33,896 nucleotides of DNA from a virus. Made by a program: the position numbers and the translations under genes. The stretch lies in IMG/VR virus record IMGVR_UViG_3300035204_000937, positions 1-33,896 of that record. One strand, written 5' to 3'. Under the pieces are notes generated by a model. It searched no databases, was not told where the DNA came from, and was given only the letters and a program-made list of their open reading frames with translations. Positions 24,131 through 33,867 of the stretch are shown piece after piece. Every line of letters starts with the position of its first letter. The first letter of the stretch is position 1.

Positions 24131-25504
24131 CTATCTACGACGGACATCTCCACCCAGCTCGCCGGAATCAATATTGGAAAAAAAGTCCTCTGCTCCAAGA
24201 GCATACGTCCTTTCTATGCTTTGAATGAGCGCATTCAAGTCCGCACCAGAAGCACTATTGAGTAGGGGTTCATACTGGGCACGCTCTTCAGGAGACATCT
24301 TATCCAAAACCGCTTCCTTACGGTAAGCCACATCAGCGGCATCCTCTCGGGCTGCGGTAAACGGGTCCTTGTCAAACGGGATGCTTGAGTAATCCTCAAA
24401 TGTCTGGGTCTCCGCTTTACCAGGCCAAGTAGGTCCTCCGGGAGGATCTTTTGGATTGACCGCCCTCGACATGTTCGCCAAAAGATCACCATCCGACATT
24501 TGTCCTGCCGAGGGTAGTCTGTCGCGAGACATGTTCTCTGGGGTTGAGACACCAAACTGAAACTCTGGTGGATTGACCGCCCTCGACATGTTCGCCAAAA
24601 GATCACTATCCCCTATCTGGCCTGCCGAAGGTAGTCTCTCGCGGGACATGTTCTCTGGGGTTGAGACACCAAACTCGTCACGGGTGGGTGTCTCCGGTTT
24701 ACCAGGCCAAGTGGGCCCTGTGGGATCTGTGGGATCTGTCGCAGGTGGAGCCGCTGCGTGAGCCGCATGAGCCTGCCTAGCGGGGGGAGCCGCTGCTGCC
24801 GCTGGAGCCTCTGGAGCTGGAGCCTCTGGAGCTGCTGCCGCTGCCGCAGGTGCTCCTCCCTTCGGGGCCTCCCCTCCTTTCGGAGCCTGCCACTTGGAAC
24901 CCTTGCCTTCCCAGAGACTAAGGATAGAGTCGTAGGCTTTGCCGCTTCCCGCCTTGACCGTCCTACCGTTGAACTTCCCTACCATAGGGTCGTTGGGGTC
25001 CGTGTGAATCGTGAAGGACCCATCCGAGTTCTTGGTGTAGCCAAACTTGCCAGAAGGGTCCATCACTGCCTTCGAGGTGCCGGGGTCTGCGCCCTTAGTC
25101 ATCGCATCATCTATGTCGGCTAGGGTCTGAGCCCCGTAACGTGGCTTACCCTTACCCTTACCCTTACCCATACCCATCTTTTCCTGGAAAGCAGCCTCCT
25201 CCGCAGCCACGGTGGCTCCTTCCTTCCCAGCAAGTCCCTCCCAGCCCCATTTTCCGGGGGCATCCATCTCAAAGGGTTCTGCCTCTTGCTTGAAGGCCGT
25301 GCTCTTGTGGGCACTAGTATCGAAGAGTTCCGCCTTGGGGTCTCTCTCAGTTACAGGCTGCCGCGCTTTGGGGTGCGCGCCTCCTCTTTGAAGGCCCAGG
25401 TTCCCCCGGGCCGCCCGGTACTGTTCGTTTGTGGCGACTCCCTTGTCTATGGCCTTCTGCGCGGCATTCTCGCGCAACTTCTGTGCCCACGTATTATTGC
25501 CCAT
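24131..25504 (-). CDS. Low-complexity protein with 39-residue internal duplication
   Basis: A 457-residue protein between the large terminase and portal. Two adjacent ATGs exist (25507 and 25504); the second has five bases from the AGGAGG that lies inside the last codons of terL, so I choose it. The N-terminus is a short charged helix (WAQKLRENAAQKAIDKG). A GKGKGKGKP stretch lies near 115-123. After that come Ala/Pro-rich linkers (residues about 215-265) and a near-perfect repeat: two copies of FGVSTPENMSRxRLPSAGQ followed by LLANMSRAVNP, encoded by 24453-24558 and 24570-24675. WPGKxETxT flanks the pair on both sides. The C-terminus (YRKEAVLDKMSPEERAQYEP) is ordinary helix. No family is recognised; low complexity and location suggest an assembly, scaffold or internal protein. 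Confidence 0.72.
   Translation of the reverse strand: MGNNTWAQKLRENAAQKAIDKGVATNEQYRAARGNLGLQRGGAHPKARQPVTERDPKAELFDTSAHKSTAFKQEAEPFEMDAPGKWGWEGLAGKEGATVAAEEAAFQEKMGMGKGKGKGKPRYGAQTLADIDDAMTKGADPGTSKAVMDPSGKFGYTKNSDGSFTIHTDPNDPMVGKFNGRTVKAGSGKAYDSILSLWEGKGSKWQAPKGGEAPKGGAPAAAAAAPEAPAPEAPAAAAAPPARQAHAAHAAAPPATDPTDPTGPTWPGKPETPTRDEFGVSTPENMSRERLPSAGQIGDSDLLANMSRAVNPPEFQFGVSTPENMSRDRLPSAGQMSDGDLLANMSRAVNPKDPPGGPTWPGKAETQTFEDYSSIPFDKDPFTAAREDAADVAYRKEAVLDKMSPEERAQYEPLLNSASGADLNALIQSIERTYALGAEDFFSNIDSGELGGDVRRR
24453..24675. repeat. Internal tandem duplication, period 117 bp
   Basis: Two copies of about 106 bp (24453-24558 and 24570-24675), starting GGATTGACCGCCCTCGACAT and both ending GAGACACCAAACT, with a period of 117 bp, which keeps the reading frame (39 codons). 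The copies differ at several bases, some silent. A further, smaller imperfect repeat (TTTACCAGGCCAAGT) lies on both sides, at about 24417-24431 and 24698-24712, so the whole block has grown by more than one duplication step. Confidence 0.88.
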
Positions 25505-28520: not shown

Positions 28521-31052
28521 CTAATGCCAGTTGTTACTATCTATACTCACTTTCGGGCTGCGGTCGACTCCGTCGAAGACGGACACGAGACGCAAGCCTC
28601 GCCAACACTTGAGACTACGCCAGGTACTGCCCACCTTCTCTTTGGCGACAATCTTCTCGTAGCCCCGCTCGCGGACTGCCTTCGAGAAGGACCTTGCCCC
28701 GTAGACTTTCTCGCCTCGGTCCTCGGCCCACTCCTGGTAGGCTGCGTACAGGCTCATCACAGGTAGTCGTCCCTGGTCTTGAGGCGCGGTCCTCTCTTCG
28801 AGGAACTCCCCCAACCAGTCTGACTCCTTCCGGTACTTCTCCACAGCGGCCATCACCTCCTCGGGGGGACACAAGCCTTGCTCGTACCATTGCTTTGCGC
28901 CTTCAATAATCCAGTTCAAGATCCCAGGTCCCTCGGTGAAGAGCTTCTGCTCAAGGCGAACATCCATCTTGTCTGCCGTCACCGTCTGCTCAAAGGGCAC
29001 AAGGTGGATACGCCGCCAGACACCGTGGTCTGTGCCCCGGATGAGGGGTTTGTGGTTCGTCAGGACACAGAGCTTGTGGGTCGGGGCGAAGTTGAAGAAG
29101 TCCTTCCGCATGAACCGAGCCTTGATCTGGTCCGACCCCGTCAACTGCTTGACGAGCCCTTCGTTCAAGACACTCGACCGGTCTAGCTCCGAGACGATAC
29201 CAAGCCGCTTCCCCCGCAGGTCCGCAACATGGGTTGGGTGTTGCTCCACCTTGGACCGAACCAGGACCGTGGCTGGCACCGGAGCCGCATAGCTTGACCC
29301 CAGACACCGTAGCAACACGTTGATGAAGGTGGTCTTGCCATTTGCTCCGTCGCCGACGAAGAAGACGAGGACTTGCTCCTGAACCTCGCCTGTAGCGAAG
29401 TAGCCTACGAGCCGCTGTAGGTAAGCTATCAGAGCTTCGTTGCCACCCATCATCCAATGAACGAACTCTTCCCACTGGGGACACTCAGCCTCCTCTCGGT
29501 AGGAGACGTTCGTAAGGCAGGTGATACCGTGGACTTTGTCGTGGTCAAGCAAGGCCCCAGACTTGAGGTCGATGACTGATGTTGGGGTCGAGAGCAGGTG
29601 ATGGTTCCTGTCGAAGGCGGTCCCCTCGGCCCGAAGCTTAGGCTCAACCTTGGCAAGCCCCACTGCTGCGTGGGCTGCGTTCTTGGATTCAGACTTGATG
29701 GCAAACTTCTTGAGGAGGGTGGCCCTGTCAGGGTCATCCGTCTTGGCGGCGGTAGCCTCCGCGAAGATGAAGGTAGAAAGGTTGGTCGCTAGATGCAGGG
29801 GAAGGTCGTCATCCTGTTTCCACTGAAGCCCCGTCCAGTAGACCCAACTGTTCCAGTCTCCGACAAAACGTAGGTCTTCCCCGTAGTGTCGGACGAGCCG
29901 CTTCGCGTTACCAAGGTCCGTGAGCCCTGGGGATAACGTAGAGGAAGGGGCTGCGGCAGTGGTCGCTGCTGTCGGATTGCTACCCAGCTTGCCGAAGCGC
30001 TTCTGTAGCTTCCGCCAACCCATTGCCCGGTTCTTGCTATCACGCTCATTGCCTGGGCAGTCCTCGTGGTGGCACCCGGCTGCGATACCCCCGGCATGGA
30101 GCTGAACGATGTAGGCACTGCCATCGGTGTGGCTCTTGTCCCAGGGACACTCGGAGAAGACCCACTTGCGTCCAAGGTTGGCCCAAGGGATAGGCCCATG
30201 GGCAGGGACTTGGTGGCGATGGAGCCACATGTCCAACTGCGTAGACTTGGCCTCATCCCGCTTGAGTCCCGATGCTCTGGGCGACATCTTGTGGAGCGCG
30301 TGTAGGTTCGACCAGGAGATTGGCCGGGTGTCTCCTGCTCGGAGGATGCGGGCTCTCCGGTGAGGCCGACTCTCCGTGTCCTCCCCCTTCCGGGCATGAG
30401 TCCCGTACAACCGAATGATTCGCGATGGATTAACCACCGAGGGATCGATGAGGACCCCGCGCTGGGCAAAGCGGAAGTCCAGATAATGTAGGAAGGACTG
30501 GATGAGTTTCTGTCTGTCCTTCTTGGGATTCTCATGGCCTTCTGGTTCGGGCTCTTCACGGAGACGCCAGAGAAGGTGGAAGCCATTGCCCGAGTCTGCG
30601 ACCGTAGGGTAGGGCAAACCTTGCTCTTCTGCCCAGAGGACGACATCCTTGAGTACGGCTGCGGCAGACCCCTTCTCCTCGCGGGTGGCCGAGATACCAG
30701 AGGGCCTGTCTGCGTCGATGTCAACGAACAGGAACTTCCGCTCAACGATGTCCTTGTCTTGCGTCCCTCCTCCCTTCTCGGCGAGGCGTACCTTGTTGGA
30801 ACACCTTGCCAGCAAGGCTGGGTTGACAGGGTTTAGGGTGACGTAAATACCCGTAGCCCCTTGCCTATCCAGGTGGACAGCGTCTCGGGCTAGGGCGGTG
30901 TAGTTGTTGAAGAACCCCGAGAAGGCGGCTGTTCTTCTGCCTTGTGGTACCCCGAGGGCTCGGAGTTCAAGGACGGCGTCTCGCTCGGGATAGAGCGTAG
31001 TAAGGTAGGCCAGGACCTCTTCTGGAGAGCCTGGGTCAGGGGGAACCTGCAT
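28521..31052 (-). CDS. PrimPol-type primase fused to SF3 helicase
   Basis: An 843-residue two-domain replication protein. The N-terminal archaeo-eukaryotic primase domain has the metal-binding FVDIDAD (residues 109-115), the SGNGFHLLW motif (154-162), and IDPSVVNPSRIIRLYGT (202-218). A zinc-binding candidate lies between the domains: C302, H308, C327, H328 and C332 in ECPWDKSH...CHHEDC. The C-terminal D5/SF3 helicase has Walker A GDGANGKT (567-574), the acidic motif VSELD (620-624), a sensor-like VLTNHKP (663-669), and an arginine pair at 680-681. Such proteins prime and unwind DNA at origins in phages and plasmids. It lies one gene downstream of the HTH protein and about 400 bases from the iteron region, so the iterons are a natural loading site. 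GAGG precedes the ATG. No polymerase gene is visible nearby. Confidence 0.93.
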   Translation of the reverse strand: MQVPPDPGSPEEVLAYLTTLYPERDAVLELRALGVPQGRRTAAFSGFFNNYTALARDAVHLDRQGATGIYVTLNPVNPALLARCSNKVRLAEKGGGTQDKDIVERKFLFVDIDADRPSGISATREEKGSAAAVLKDVVLWAEEQGLPYPTVADSGNGFHLLWRLREEPEPEGHENPKKDRQKLIQSFLHYLDFRFAQRGVLIDPSVVNPSRIIRLYGTHARKGEDTESRPHRRARILRAGDTRPISWSNLHALHKMSPRASGLKRDEAKSTQLDMWLHRHQVPAHGPIPWANLGRKWVFSECPWDKSHTDGSAYIVQLHAGGIAAGCHHEDCPGNERDSKNRAMGWRKLQKRFGKLGSNPTAATTAAAPSSTLSPGLTDLGNAKRLVRHYGEDLRFVGDWNSWVYWTGLQWKQDDDLPLHLATNLSTFIFAEATAAKTDDPDRATLLKKFAIKSESKNAAHAAVGLAKVEPKLRAEGTAFDRNHHLLSTPTSVIDLKSGALLDHDKVHGITCLTNVSYREEAECPQWEEFVHWMMGGNEALIAYLQRLVGYFATGEVQEQVLVFFVGDGANGKTTFINVLLRCLGSSYAAPVPATVLVRSKVEQHPTHVADLRGKRLGIVSELDRSSVLNEGLVKQLTGSDQIKARFMRKDFFNFAPTHKLCVLTNHKPLIRGTDHGVWRRIHLVPFEQTVTADKMDVRLEQKLFTEGPGILNWIIEGAKQWYEQGLCPPEEVMAAVEKYRKESDWLGEFLEERTAPQDQGRLPVMSLYAAYQEWAEDRGEKVYGARSFSKAVRERGYEKIVAKEKVGSTWRSLKCWRGLRLVSVFDGVDRSPKVSIDSNNWH

Positions 31053-31091: not shown

Positions 31092-31310
31092 CTAGAAGTC
31101 AGGGGCATTTGTTGTAGCAGGTTCACGCACTCTCGCGAAGTCAACGATTGCTTGTCTGGGGATCCTAGGTGTGTTTCGTCCAGGGGATGTACTGAGGTAC
31201 AGGCAGCCGATTTGTTTCGTTTCTATTAGTCGAGCAAGCGTTCGGGTAGAGACCCCGAGGATCTTAGCGGCCTTACTGCACGAGTAGAGCAGGGGGAATG
31301 GTGGTAACAT
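31092..31310 (-). CDS. Helix-turn-helix regulator, excisionase-like
   Basis: A 72-residue protein starting MLPPFPLLYSCSKAAKILGV at 31310. AAGGAGAGTCC lies immediately upstream; a longer in-frame start at 31352 is unlikely because the TATAAT box at 31333-31338 would lie inside it. The HTH (residues 9-35, CSKAAKILGVSTRTLARLIE) and the following RIPRQAIVDFARV are typical of the small MerR/excisionase-type (HTH_17) proteins that bind short DNA repeats. It is the first gene of the leftward transcript, and the repeat-dense control region is directly upstream. It may bind the 23-bp palindrome or the iterons, either repressing its own promoter or helping origin function; both are inference. Confidence 0.82.
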   Translation of the reverse strand: MLPPFPLLYSCSKAAKILGVSTRTLARLIETKQIGCLYLSTSPGRNTPRIPRQAIVDFARVREPATTNAPDF

Positions 31311-31332: not shown

Positions 31333-31361
31333 ATTATATACCATTTTGCCAATCCTGCCTA
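31333..31361 (-). promoter_or_regulatory. Sigma70-type promoter for the leftward block
   Basis: On the minus strand, TAGGCA (31356-31361, 4 of 6 match to TTGACA) is followed after 17 bases by a perfect TATAAT (31333-31338). The transcript would begin near 31326, giving a short leader that ends in AAGGAGAG before the ATG at 31310. This is the best host-type promoter in the window. It would drive the HTH and primase genes and, with readthrough, the packaging genes. Confidence 0.72.
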
Positions 31362-31696
31362 GTTCTGACAGAAAGTTTTATCTCTAGGAACCCTCGGGCG
31401 GTGTGTGCGACCCCGTTCAAGTAGTTCTTTCGCTTGAGGCCCTGGGTGGCCTGTTGGGGTTAGGTCTGGCGTAGTGTGGCATGAACTAAATTTCTACCAC
31501 TACCGGTAGAAACGTGATTCGCTATCGGTAGAAAACCCAAAATGTGCCCACGCTGGCCCCTTGGTTATCGTGAGTTTTCTACCGCTACGAGAGTTTTCTA
31601 CCGATAGGGTTTTCTATCGGTAGAACGATTATGCCCCTTGCCCCCTGGGCTATAACTGAAAAAGCCTTTCTACCGCACTTTGGTAACGTTTGCACT

Positions 31697-31739
31697 TTAA
31701 GAAAAAAAAAATGTGTGCATAAGAAAAAAAGAAAAAAAT
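31697..31739. other. A-rich tract, possible DNA unwinding element
   Basis: A run of long A stretches (AAAAAAAAAA, then AAAAAAAGAAAAAAA) broken by TGTGTGCAT, in an otherwise GC-rich window. It lies between the two groups of six iterons, where an unwinding element of an origin would be expected. The role is inferred from composition and position. Confidence 0.6.
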
Positions 31740-31742
31740 GTA

Positions 31743-31852
31743 GGGGGTTATAGAGAGATCTATCGGTAGAAACGGTAGAAAACTACTATATACTACTTTA
31801 GAAGTAGAATAATCGTTCTACCGTTTTTCTACCGTTCTACCGATAGACCCCC
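31743..31852. repeat. Nested inverted repeat (cruciform-capable) within the iteron array
   Basis: Arms of 25 bases (31759-31783 and 31823-31847) are complementary except for two compensating one-base shifts. They carry the iterons, so each arm holds two. Inside the spacer is a perfect 6-bp hairpin, CTACTT-TAG-AAGTAG (31793-31807). Outside, GGGGG (31743-31747) can pair with CCCCC (31848-31852). The whole can form one extended stem or a cruciform. It is centred in the second iteron group. Confidence 0.82.
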
Positions 31853-31868
31853 TGTAGCGGTAGAAAAC

Positions 31869-32322: not shown

Positions 32323-32345
32323 CTATGTGAACAGTGTTCACATAG
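32323..32345. promoter_or_regulatory. 23-bp perfect palindrome, operator candidate
   Basis: CTATGTGAACA and TGTTCACATAG (11-base perfect arms) flank a single G at 32334. Size and symmetry are typical of a dimeric repressor operator. It lies between the divergent minus-strand promoter candidate (32282-32311) and the plus-strand gene, where it could control both. The HTH protein at 31092-31310 is one candidate ligand. A related half-site GTTCAC recurs at 32591-32596. Confidence 0.7.
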
Positions 32346-32363
32346 TGGTGCAAGTGGTCTATT

Positions 32364-32633: not shown

Positions 32634-33551
32634 ATGACAACCGTATCCAATACCCCTAGCCGTGACAGCCGTGCTACTGCTAAGGAACTCGAAACCCTAG
32701 CTGGTCTTGAGCTTATGGCCGCTGGCCGTATCTTGGCAACTTCTCTCGAACCCTTCGCAGGGTTGGGCAAACCTTACTACCGTCGGACTAAGTCTGGTGA
32801 CCGTGCGACCAATTTCTATGTCGTTGTTGATGTAGATGGGTGCTTCATTAGCGCTCACATTGGTCGCAATATGGCAAGCGTAGCAGCGGCTAGTTCCGAC
32901 TATCCAAAGGGTGCACAAGTAGCGCTTAAGCCTTGGTTTGAGGCCAACGACCTTCCCTCCGACCTTGGCGAGGAACTCGCCTTGACCCGTGACGACTTTG
33001 CTCGGCTCGTTAGCTTGTCTGTAGCGTCCACTGACCACTACATCATTGGTGCTCGTTCCTTTGTTGCTTCCCCTGTTCCGACGGCGCTCCCTAGCACGGA
33101 CCCTGCAATCACTATCCAATTGGATGACGTAGCATTCCAAACAGTCTGTAAGGATATCTGGGACCGTGTCACTGGTGATAGTTCCTGTGAGGAGATTGAA
33201 GCAGCTAACACGCAACATGCTCTGCGAACGGCTATCAAGGCGTTGGCCAGTGCCAATATGCGACGTCGGGTCCAAGCCACGCGTACACTTCGGATGTGCT
33301 GCTTGAATGCGCTCGAAGAACTTGAGTATCTTGAGGTAACCCGGGCTCGCAACGACATGCGTGAGAGTCTGGAGCAGAGTCTGAAGACTATCGATAAGGC
33401 TAATGACGAAATTAACCCTGACCAGGAGCCCGGCTCTCGCAAGGAGTACCAAGGTACCATCAAAGCGCTCATCAACGCCTATACCGGTACCGACGACCTT
33501 GTAGCAGCCGCCATCGCTCGTGAGAGTGATACCGATAGCGTCGACGCCTAG
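32634..33551 (+). CDS. Divergent early-type protein of unknown function
   Basis: A 305-residue protein, the only plus-strand gene, starting MTTVSNTPSRDSRATAKELE with AGGAA six bases upstream. The N-terminal 60 residues form helix (LETLAGLELMAAGRILATSL), then YYRRTKSGDRATNFYVVVDVDGCFISAHIGR is a beta-like patch. The C-terminal third (about 215-300) is a long charged helix (MRRRVQATRTLRMCCLNALEELEYLEVTRARNDMRE). Codon choice is richer in T-ending codons (GCT, CGT, GGT) than in the minus-strand block, suggesting a different expression class or origin. No motif for a nuclease, repressor or anti-defence protein is recognised. Transcription away from the control region suggests an early gene. Confidence 0.78.
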   Translation: MTTVSNTPSRDSRATAKELETLAGLELMAAGRILATSLEPFAGLGKPYYRRTKSGDRATNFYVVVDVDGCFISAHIGRNMASVAAASSDYPKGAQVALKPWFEANDLPSDLGEELALTRDDFARLVSLSVASTDHYIIGARSFVASPVPTALPSTDPAITIQLDDVAFQTVCKDIWDRVTGDSSCEEIEAANTQHALRTAIKALASANMRRRVQATRTLRMCCLNALEELEYLEVTRARNDMRESLEQSLKTIDKANDEINPDQEPGSRKEYQGTIKALINAYTGTDDLVAAAIARESDTDSVDA

Positions 33552-33660: not shown

Positions 33661-33727
33661 TCTAGCTCTAGCTCTAGCTCTAGCCGTAGCTCTAGCTCTA
33701 GCTCTAGCTGTAGCAGCTAGCTCTAGC
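33661..33727. repeat. TCTAGC hexamer satellite
   Basis: Nine tandem hexamers TCTAGC, with two variants (CGTAGC and TGTAGC), from 33661 to 33714, then AGCTAGC and a last TCTAGC to 33727. It is purely noncoding in all frames that I can support: no long open frame with a plausible start crosses it. Such AG/CT palindromic satellites are prone to slippage and may act as spacers or protein-binding arrays. Confidence 0.85.
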
Positions 33728-33867
33728 CCTTGACCCGTGGTCAAGGTGCACCGGGCACCTTTGCACCGGGCACCCCTTGACCCCTTGACCCGTGCAGGGT
33801 GTACCCCTTGACCCCTTGACCTATGCCCCCCCTATAGGTCAAGAGGTACCCCCCCTACACCCTGCAC
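33728..33867. repeat. TTGACC words and nested palindromes, right-end noncoding region
   Basis: CCTTGACC-CGT-GGTCAAGG (33728-33746) is a perfect hairpin. TGCACCGGGCACC occurs twice (33747-33759 and 33762-33774). The octamer CCCCTTGA repeats in pairs. CTTGACCTAT (33815-33824) pairs with ATAGGTCAAG (33834-33843), and GTGCAGGGTGTA (33792-33803) pairs with TACACCCTGCAC (33856-33867), enclosing it. TTGACC occurs five times directly and twice inverted in 113 bases. Function unknown: a second regulatory or packaging region, or an end-associated repeat. Confidence 0.75.

Follow-up and report, generated by a model that had tools for sequence, protein, structure and literature searches.

In a genome fragment of an uncultured phage, 376 bp of non-coding DNA are best explained, with a probability of about three in four, as the phage replication origin: sequence and analogy together suggest an origin of the P4/SaPI iteron type that would be read by the neighbouring PrimPol-SF3 primase-helicase. 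The same estimate covers a second part of this explanation, that the adjacent helix-turn-helix (HTH) protein would be a regulator or excisionase-like protein and not the initiator. A preliminary description of the window (the whole 33,896-nucleotide stretch analysed here) had already named this region the likely origin. The proposal has become the best-supported reading, through conserved iterons, an SF3 helicase with a winged helix, an A+T-rich core and parallels in P4, A2 and Sfi21, but both the presumed reader of the sites and the yardstick for comparison have changed. If correct, it provides a group of uncultured phages, which a terminase comparison placed close to no cultured phage, with a concrete candidate origin and initiator, and extends the P4/SaPI origin plan to phages with a PrimPol primase half.

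Organization of the iteron array

The octamer CGGTAGAA occurs in twelve exact copies in the window, six per strand, all within positions 31504-31865; 0.71 copies are expected per whole window, twelve were reached in none of 100 dinucleotide shuffles, and a search of the whole record found no exact copy outside the array. The sites are oriented ++--+- and ++---+ on either side of an A-rich tract (about 31699-31741), bearing out the order of six copies, tract and six copies first described. Spacings in the left half are 22, 51, 19, 22 and 50 bp and include two-turn intervals; the right half consists of two plus-strand sites 9 bp apart, an interval of 43, three minus-strand sites at 11 and 8, and the twelfth iteron. 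It had also been stated that every CGGTAG hexamer extends to the octamer. Twelve do, but a thirteenth, on the minus strand at 31500-31505, lies inside the palindrome CTACCGGTAG and has no such extension.

The array stands in non-coding DNA beside the initiator gene, 5' of the HTH-primase genes, just as P4 ori1 is 5' of the left P4 operon. This placement is unusual, most relatives having their arrays 3' of the primase and P4 having both. The two orientations and irregular spacing differ from the direct repeats of classical iteron plasmid origins, whose initiators are of the Rep_3/RepA type, where that beside the array is SF3. The preliminary description had set the alternating orientations against those plasmid repeats and called their combination with a cruciform unusual for podoviruses. 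Mixed 8-mers are, however, not unusual for this initiator type, being present in P4 ori1, P4 crr and many SF3-primase phages, so that plasmid iterons, as direct repeats, are not the right standard of comparison.

Two other repeats were observed in the window. Tandem TAGCTC hexamers followed by six copies of CCTTGACC occupy its right end (33661-33821), and a 117-bp tandem duplication with 91% matches (24452-24675) lies within a 458-aa ORF beside the portal gene.

Table 1. Features of the array and its neighbourhood, in window coordinates
Feature	Position	Strand	Remarks
Primase-helicase	28521-31052	-	N-terminal PrimPol (AEP) fold, D5_N, SF3 helicase (P4-family primase C-terminal domain), C-terminal winged helix
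Winged-helix segment, residues 746-822	28587-28817	-	Proposed iteron reader
72-aa excisionase/MerR-like HTH protein	31092-31310	-	HTH_17; TIGR01764 weak; PHROG 66 weak
Promoter-like site of HTH-primase genes	31333-31361	-	TAGGCA-17-TATAAT; consensus match only
Degenerate iteron TGGTAGAA	31492-31499	-	One mismatch
Left half, six CGGTAGAA	31504-31675		31504+, 31526+, 31577-, 31596-, 31618+, 31668-
A-rich tract between halves	31699-31741	+	Sequence not kept in relatives
Large inverted repeat/hairpin	31759-31847		Opposed iteron clusters pair; relatives lack the outer pairs
Proposed core origin	31764-31842		+ pair (9 bp), 43 bp from start to start, then - triplet (11 and 8 bp)
A+T-rich core spacer, 35 bp	31781-31815		Candidate melting site
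Twelfth iteron	31858-31865	+	Spacing 23 in window, 33 in relatives

Conservation of sites and geometry

The array was compared with those of three IMG/VR contigs (G001, G002 and G003) whose primase is 93% identical to that of the window. G002 and G003 hardly differ from each other, and around the region both share 99.5% identity with G001, so that the comparison is close to a single independent one. All 12 sites are kept in these relatives, in the same order and orientation, at spacings of 22, 51, 19, 21/22 and 50 in the left half and 9, 43, 11 and 8 in the right. Only two gaps differ, the one across the A-rich tract (96 in the window, 108 in the relatives) and the last (Table 1), and both change by about one helical turn; the tract itself is replaced by A and GT/CA runs and is 12 bp longer. 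Bases within the sites are identical throughout (96/96), as against 201/280 of the other array bases, a contrast for which the hypergeometric P of 2.6e-12 is indicative, neighbouring bases not being independent. The flanks of the array have diverged to 27-44% identity. Since every site base is identical and the spacings are kept amid diverged flanks, the sequence comparison argues that the iterons and their geometry are under purifying selection.

A scan of IMG/VR for three direct copies of CGGTAGAA with short gaps returned 74 stretches. Outside the three relatives, every stretch with at least four copies is a same-strand array, many having multiple-of-3 spacings like coding repeats, and the mixed array is therefore confined to this clade in that search. 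Same-strand arrays with 11-, 22- or 33-bp spacing were seen in four unrelated IMG/VR contigs (L038, L085, L087 and L039) and could be direct-repeat iterons of other replicons. A different repeat, of 18 bp (about CGTTCACNNAGTGAATGC), forms ten tandem copies in the relatives L010 (positions 103-340; IMGVR_UViG_3300010151_000063) and L011, about 230 bp outside their CGGTAGAA arrays. Its counterpart in the window is one palindromic copy near 32325-32347 and in G001 two GTTCAC copies; the contigs G002 and G003 end close to it.

Candidate readers of the iterons

The protein encoded next to the array belongs by its domains to a family of initiators. It matches D5_N (83.7 bits), DUF5906, Pox_D5 (27.8 bits, cut-off 21.4) and TIGR01613, 'phage/plasmid primase, P4 family' (289 bits, cut-off 109), which places a P4-family C-terminal/SF3 domain beside the iterons. 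An AlphaFold2 model built from 22 sequences (mean pLDDT 78.7, pTM 0.53) has its best structural match in the SaPI5 Rep/primase-helicase 7ola (Z 29.6, 6.0 A over 388 residues); residues 364-829 match the SaPI5 primase-helicase, ASFV PrimPol, poxvirus D5/E5 and NrS-1, and residues 6-266 match mycobacterial PrimPol 5op0 (Z 10.8, 3.7 A over 197 residues). At residues 746-822 the predicted order of helices and strands is that of a winged helix (pLDDT mostly 79-87), so that both the Pox_D5 match and the predicted fold point to a C-terminal winged helix; the match to the P4 origin-binding domain 1ka8 has an E value of only 1.1. SaPI Rep and Cch2 bind iterons via their C-terminal domains, SaPI Rep apparently as two hexamers (PMC7581432).

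The winged helix (745-822) is 100% identical in the relatives and the helicase core 90%. The HTH protein of the window is only 44% identical to that of a relative. Because the DNA word and the winged helix are both unchanged while the HTH protein has drifted so far, the C-terminus of the primase-helicase is, on these sequence comparisons, more likely the iteron reader than the HTH protein is. One weak match of the latter is to a PHROG family named 'excisionase and transcriptional regulator'. By BLASTP it could not be aligned with P4 ORF88, and the label 'Vis homologue' was dropped in the absence of that similarity. Both genes had been placed directly beside the array; they are indeed adjacent, but 'directly' is slightly loose, since some 190 bp separate the first perfect site from the start codon of the HTH gene (ATG 31310).

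An operator array, to which the HTH protein or another regulator would bind so as to control two divergent units, would remove the region from consideration as an origin. We regard this as unlikely, although several features lend themselves to it: the array occupies a divergent intergenic region with the HTH gene adjacent, about half of the sites are near-palindromic (CTAYCGGTAG), and the HTH proteins of the window and the relative share S-RT-RL-E-K in the helix region, some recognition-helix residues thus being kept, so that binding is possible. Yet the sites, kept in full, have outlasted the 44% conservation of that protein, and they are neither scattered nor overlapped by promoters in the manner of phage operators or stoperators. 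Inside the array, a promoter scan gave nothing above chance; the HTH-primase genes have a single clear promoter-like site, about 140 bp outside the perfect sites, and some 770 bp separate the array from the start of the rightward gene. (The latter, a 305-aa gene at 32634-33551, had no domain and no IMG/VR relatives in a pattern search.) Scattering of the octamer as an operator in related phages had been named at the outset as one of the findings that would overturn an origin; it was looked for in four records, and in each the exact copies lie in one place. Other phages, moreover, show the same architecture with other motifs after their primase genes.

Predicted hairpins

The second six sites had been described as folded into an inverted repeat with 25-bp arms and a second hairpin inside. 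Both structures exist, but the large stem, which pairs two iteron-pair arms (about 31759-31782 with 31825-31847), carries a one-base bulge and is not an uninterrupted 25 bp, and the inner CTACTT/AAGTAG hairpin has 6 pairs only. The large hairpin folds with a dG of -23.6 kcal/mol and a z of -7.2; a hairpin in the left half (31596-31607 with 31614-31625) is shorter and cleaner. Such structures raise the prospect of a cruciform or stem-loop origin, in which the initiator recognises a hairpin and not the iterons: the predicted hairpins are strong (z -7.2 and -6.1), pRN1 requires a 100-bp stem-loop, and an origin of this kind has likewise been proposed for BIP-1/BPP-1 (PMC4234260). We consider it very improbable here. 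Opposed iterons pair automatically, and the large hairpin is for that reason a by-product of their arrangement; BPP-1 itself carries opposed 9-bp iterons, and Cch2 binding does without inverted repeats (PMC7581432). In the relatives the iteron part of the stem still pairs and the outer pairs are gone, so that what has been conserved is the set of iterons and not a stem-loop of the pRN1 type. Scarcely credible, finally, is a role outside replication (a partition centromere, a recombination or excision site, or a packaging signal), for although iteron-like arrays are also found at centromeres and att arms and an excisionase-like HTH protein is adjacent, no integrase or ParA/ParB occurs among the genes profiled near the array, and such arrays pair with primase genes across lineages.

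A proposed core and mode of action

Within the iteron origin that we favour, the core is probably the interval 31764-31842, where opposed clusters with a pitch of about one turn surround a 35-bp spacer of 74% A+T. The same A+T content is found in G001 (the window mean is 43%), and spacer length and composition are kept there despite a partly changed sequence, as is the geometry of the core in all relatives. An A+T-rich spacer between iteron clusters is also expected of origins of the P4/SaPI type. By analogy, the left half probably provides accessory, crr-like sites. In all three records, cumulative GC skew, suggested earlier as a check, reaches its minimum some 2 kb to the left of the array; as this coincides with the switch in gene direction, we use it as weak support only.

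From the array, the selection upon it, the protein domains and the parallels computed here, we infer binding, melting, origin activity and direction as follows. Monomers of the primase-helicase would bind the 8-bp iterons via the C-terminal winged helix, and the one-turn pitch and opposed clusters would set two hexamers face to face around the spacer. ATP-driven SF3 rings could then melt its 35 bp and the PrimPol domain prime both strands, after which the host's replication proteins, or others, would presumably take over elongation. For accessory loading, the phage may use the left six sites together with the A-rich tract, in the way that P4 uses crr.

Arrays at other SF3-primase loci

Among 176 SF3-primase loci drawn from IMG/VR, GTDB genomes and GenBank phages, a survey for 8-10-mers that recur in both orientations inside 350 bp yielded 15 independent mixed arrays with unrelated motifs. 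Twelve of these are at most 300 bp from the primase 3' end (P 5e-5 by permutation, the lowest value that the test can give); shuffled controls (82 loci, three times each, 246 tries) gave at most one five-copy mixed array. The arrays include those of two mycobacteriophages (AGGGACAT and AGCACAGA), Listeria PSA (AACTATCCAC) and a Staphylococcus phage (AAAGTGAAT), and opposed clusters are exemplified by ACGGAAGGA (++ 62 ---), ACTATACAC (-- 78 ++) and CCCGTAACA (--- 73 ++). In all ten cases examined (10/10), the spacer between opposed clusters is richer in A+T than its own locus. With thresholds lowered, arrays also emerge at the primase end of the closest full-length homologues, AACGGAA as ++++--- in L196 and ATCCGCCG as --++ in L103; these distant homologues, with L195, show weak arrays only, at the primase 3' end, and L102 is truncated on its upstream side. 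Most of the 176 loci have no array at the survey thresholds, so the shared plan is a tendency and not a law.

The annotated origins of A2 and Sfi21 and about a dozen other lineages combine lineage-specific iterons of 7-10 bp, opposed clusters and an A+T-rich spacer beside the primase gene. Pairs whose helicase cores are 61-68% identical have winged helices of 30-43% identity, and their iterons are unrelated. We lean towards the view that a single origin grammar is common to phages and prophages with P4-family SF3 primase-helicases. Its iterons, 7-10 bp long and specific to each lineage, would follow one another at about one helical turn and form opposed clusters on either side of an A+T-rich spacer beside the primase gene; their reader would be a C-terminal winged helix that diverges fast. 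In that case the origins of hundreds of phages, BPP-1 included, would be readable from sequence and an iteron-winged-helix code would become testable. The matched pairs in which both winged helix and iterons have diverged form a natural data set on DNA recognition. In Acidithiobacillus phage AcaML1 and prophage loci related to it (L098:7783-8121, L169:6946-7080, L207:4858-5017, L227:7793-8097 and L114:5154-5191), mixed arrays of a second type, of GGTTTGCA or GGTGGAAACC, lie farther away, 1.4-2.5 kb from the primase on its 3' side.

Comparison with known origins

The closest known layout is that of P4, where ori1 and crr serve the alpha protein (Ziegelin and Lanka 1995, as cited in PMC4234260). 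By the annotation of NC_001609, ori1 has six 8-bp type 1 repeats in both orientations, resembling the window in repeat length and mixed orientation. Its location is also similar to that of the array described here: a small excisionase-like gene follows ori1 immediately, and the operons on its two sides diverge. P4 crr, just 3' of the alpha primase gene, has ten repeats with a pattern of ++--+ at spacings of 9, 43, 18 and 14; its +/+ 9, 43, - resembles the ++ (9), 43, --- of the right half, a likeness that depends on motif registration. Depending as it does on the assumed motif start, we did not accept this match as proof of common descent. P4 alpha shares with the window's protein the SF3 helicase and C-terminal winged helix, but its primase half is TOPRIM/Zn-ribbon where that of the window is PrimPol. 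The iteron words differ (TGTTCACC in P4, CGGTAGAA here), and ori1 and crr are about 4.7 kb apart, whereas both halves lie within 376 bp in the window.

SaPI5 Rep and SCCmec Cch2 have a Primase_Cterm/D5_N helicase like that of the window, and the binding of short iterons by their C-terminal domain is the role proposed here for the winged helix; their origins lie just 3' of the gene, unlike the present array, Cch2 uses 5-nt iterons, only three of which were found, and the iteron sequences of these systems differ from ours (PMC7581432). Among phage origins taken from record annotation, that of Lactobacillus phage A2 starts at the stop codon of the SF3 primase and has ACGGGAG as ++++--- around a spacer of 81% A+T, and that of Streptococcus phage Sfi21, at the primase 3' end, has short GTAAC-type repeats in both orientations. 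Both differ from the window in lying 3' of the primase and in having other motifs and fewer sites.

pRN1 ORF904 and BIP-1/BPP-1 resemble the window in joining PrimPol, SF3 and winged-helix domains and in having a hairpin near the gene; pRN1 is reported to be without iterons (PMC4234260), whereas in the window these are the conserved element. For BIP-1, which is near-identical to BPP-1, no origin-like iterons were reported and a stem-loop origin was proposed (PMC4234260). At lower thresholds, the gap between bbp27 and bbp28 in BPP-1, near the primase 3' end, shows the 9-bp ACGAGGCAA in opposed orientation (-- 77 ++), with an A+T-rich spacer between the clusters (L276:4608-4711; NC_005357 26607-26710). 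On this evidence, the stem-loop model published for phages like BPP-1 probably needs re-testing against iterons.
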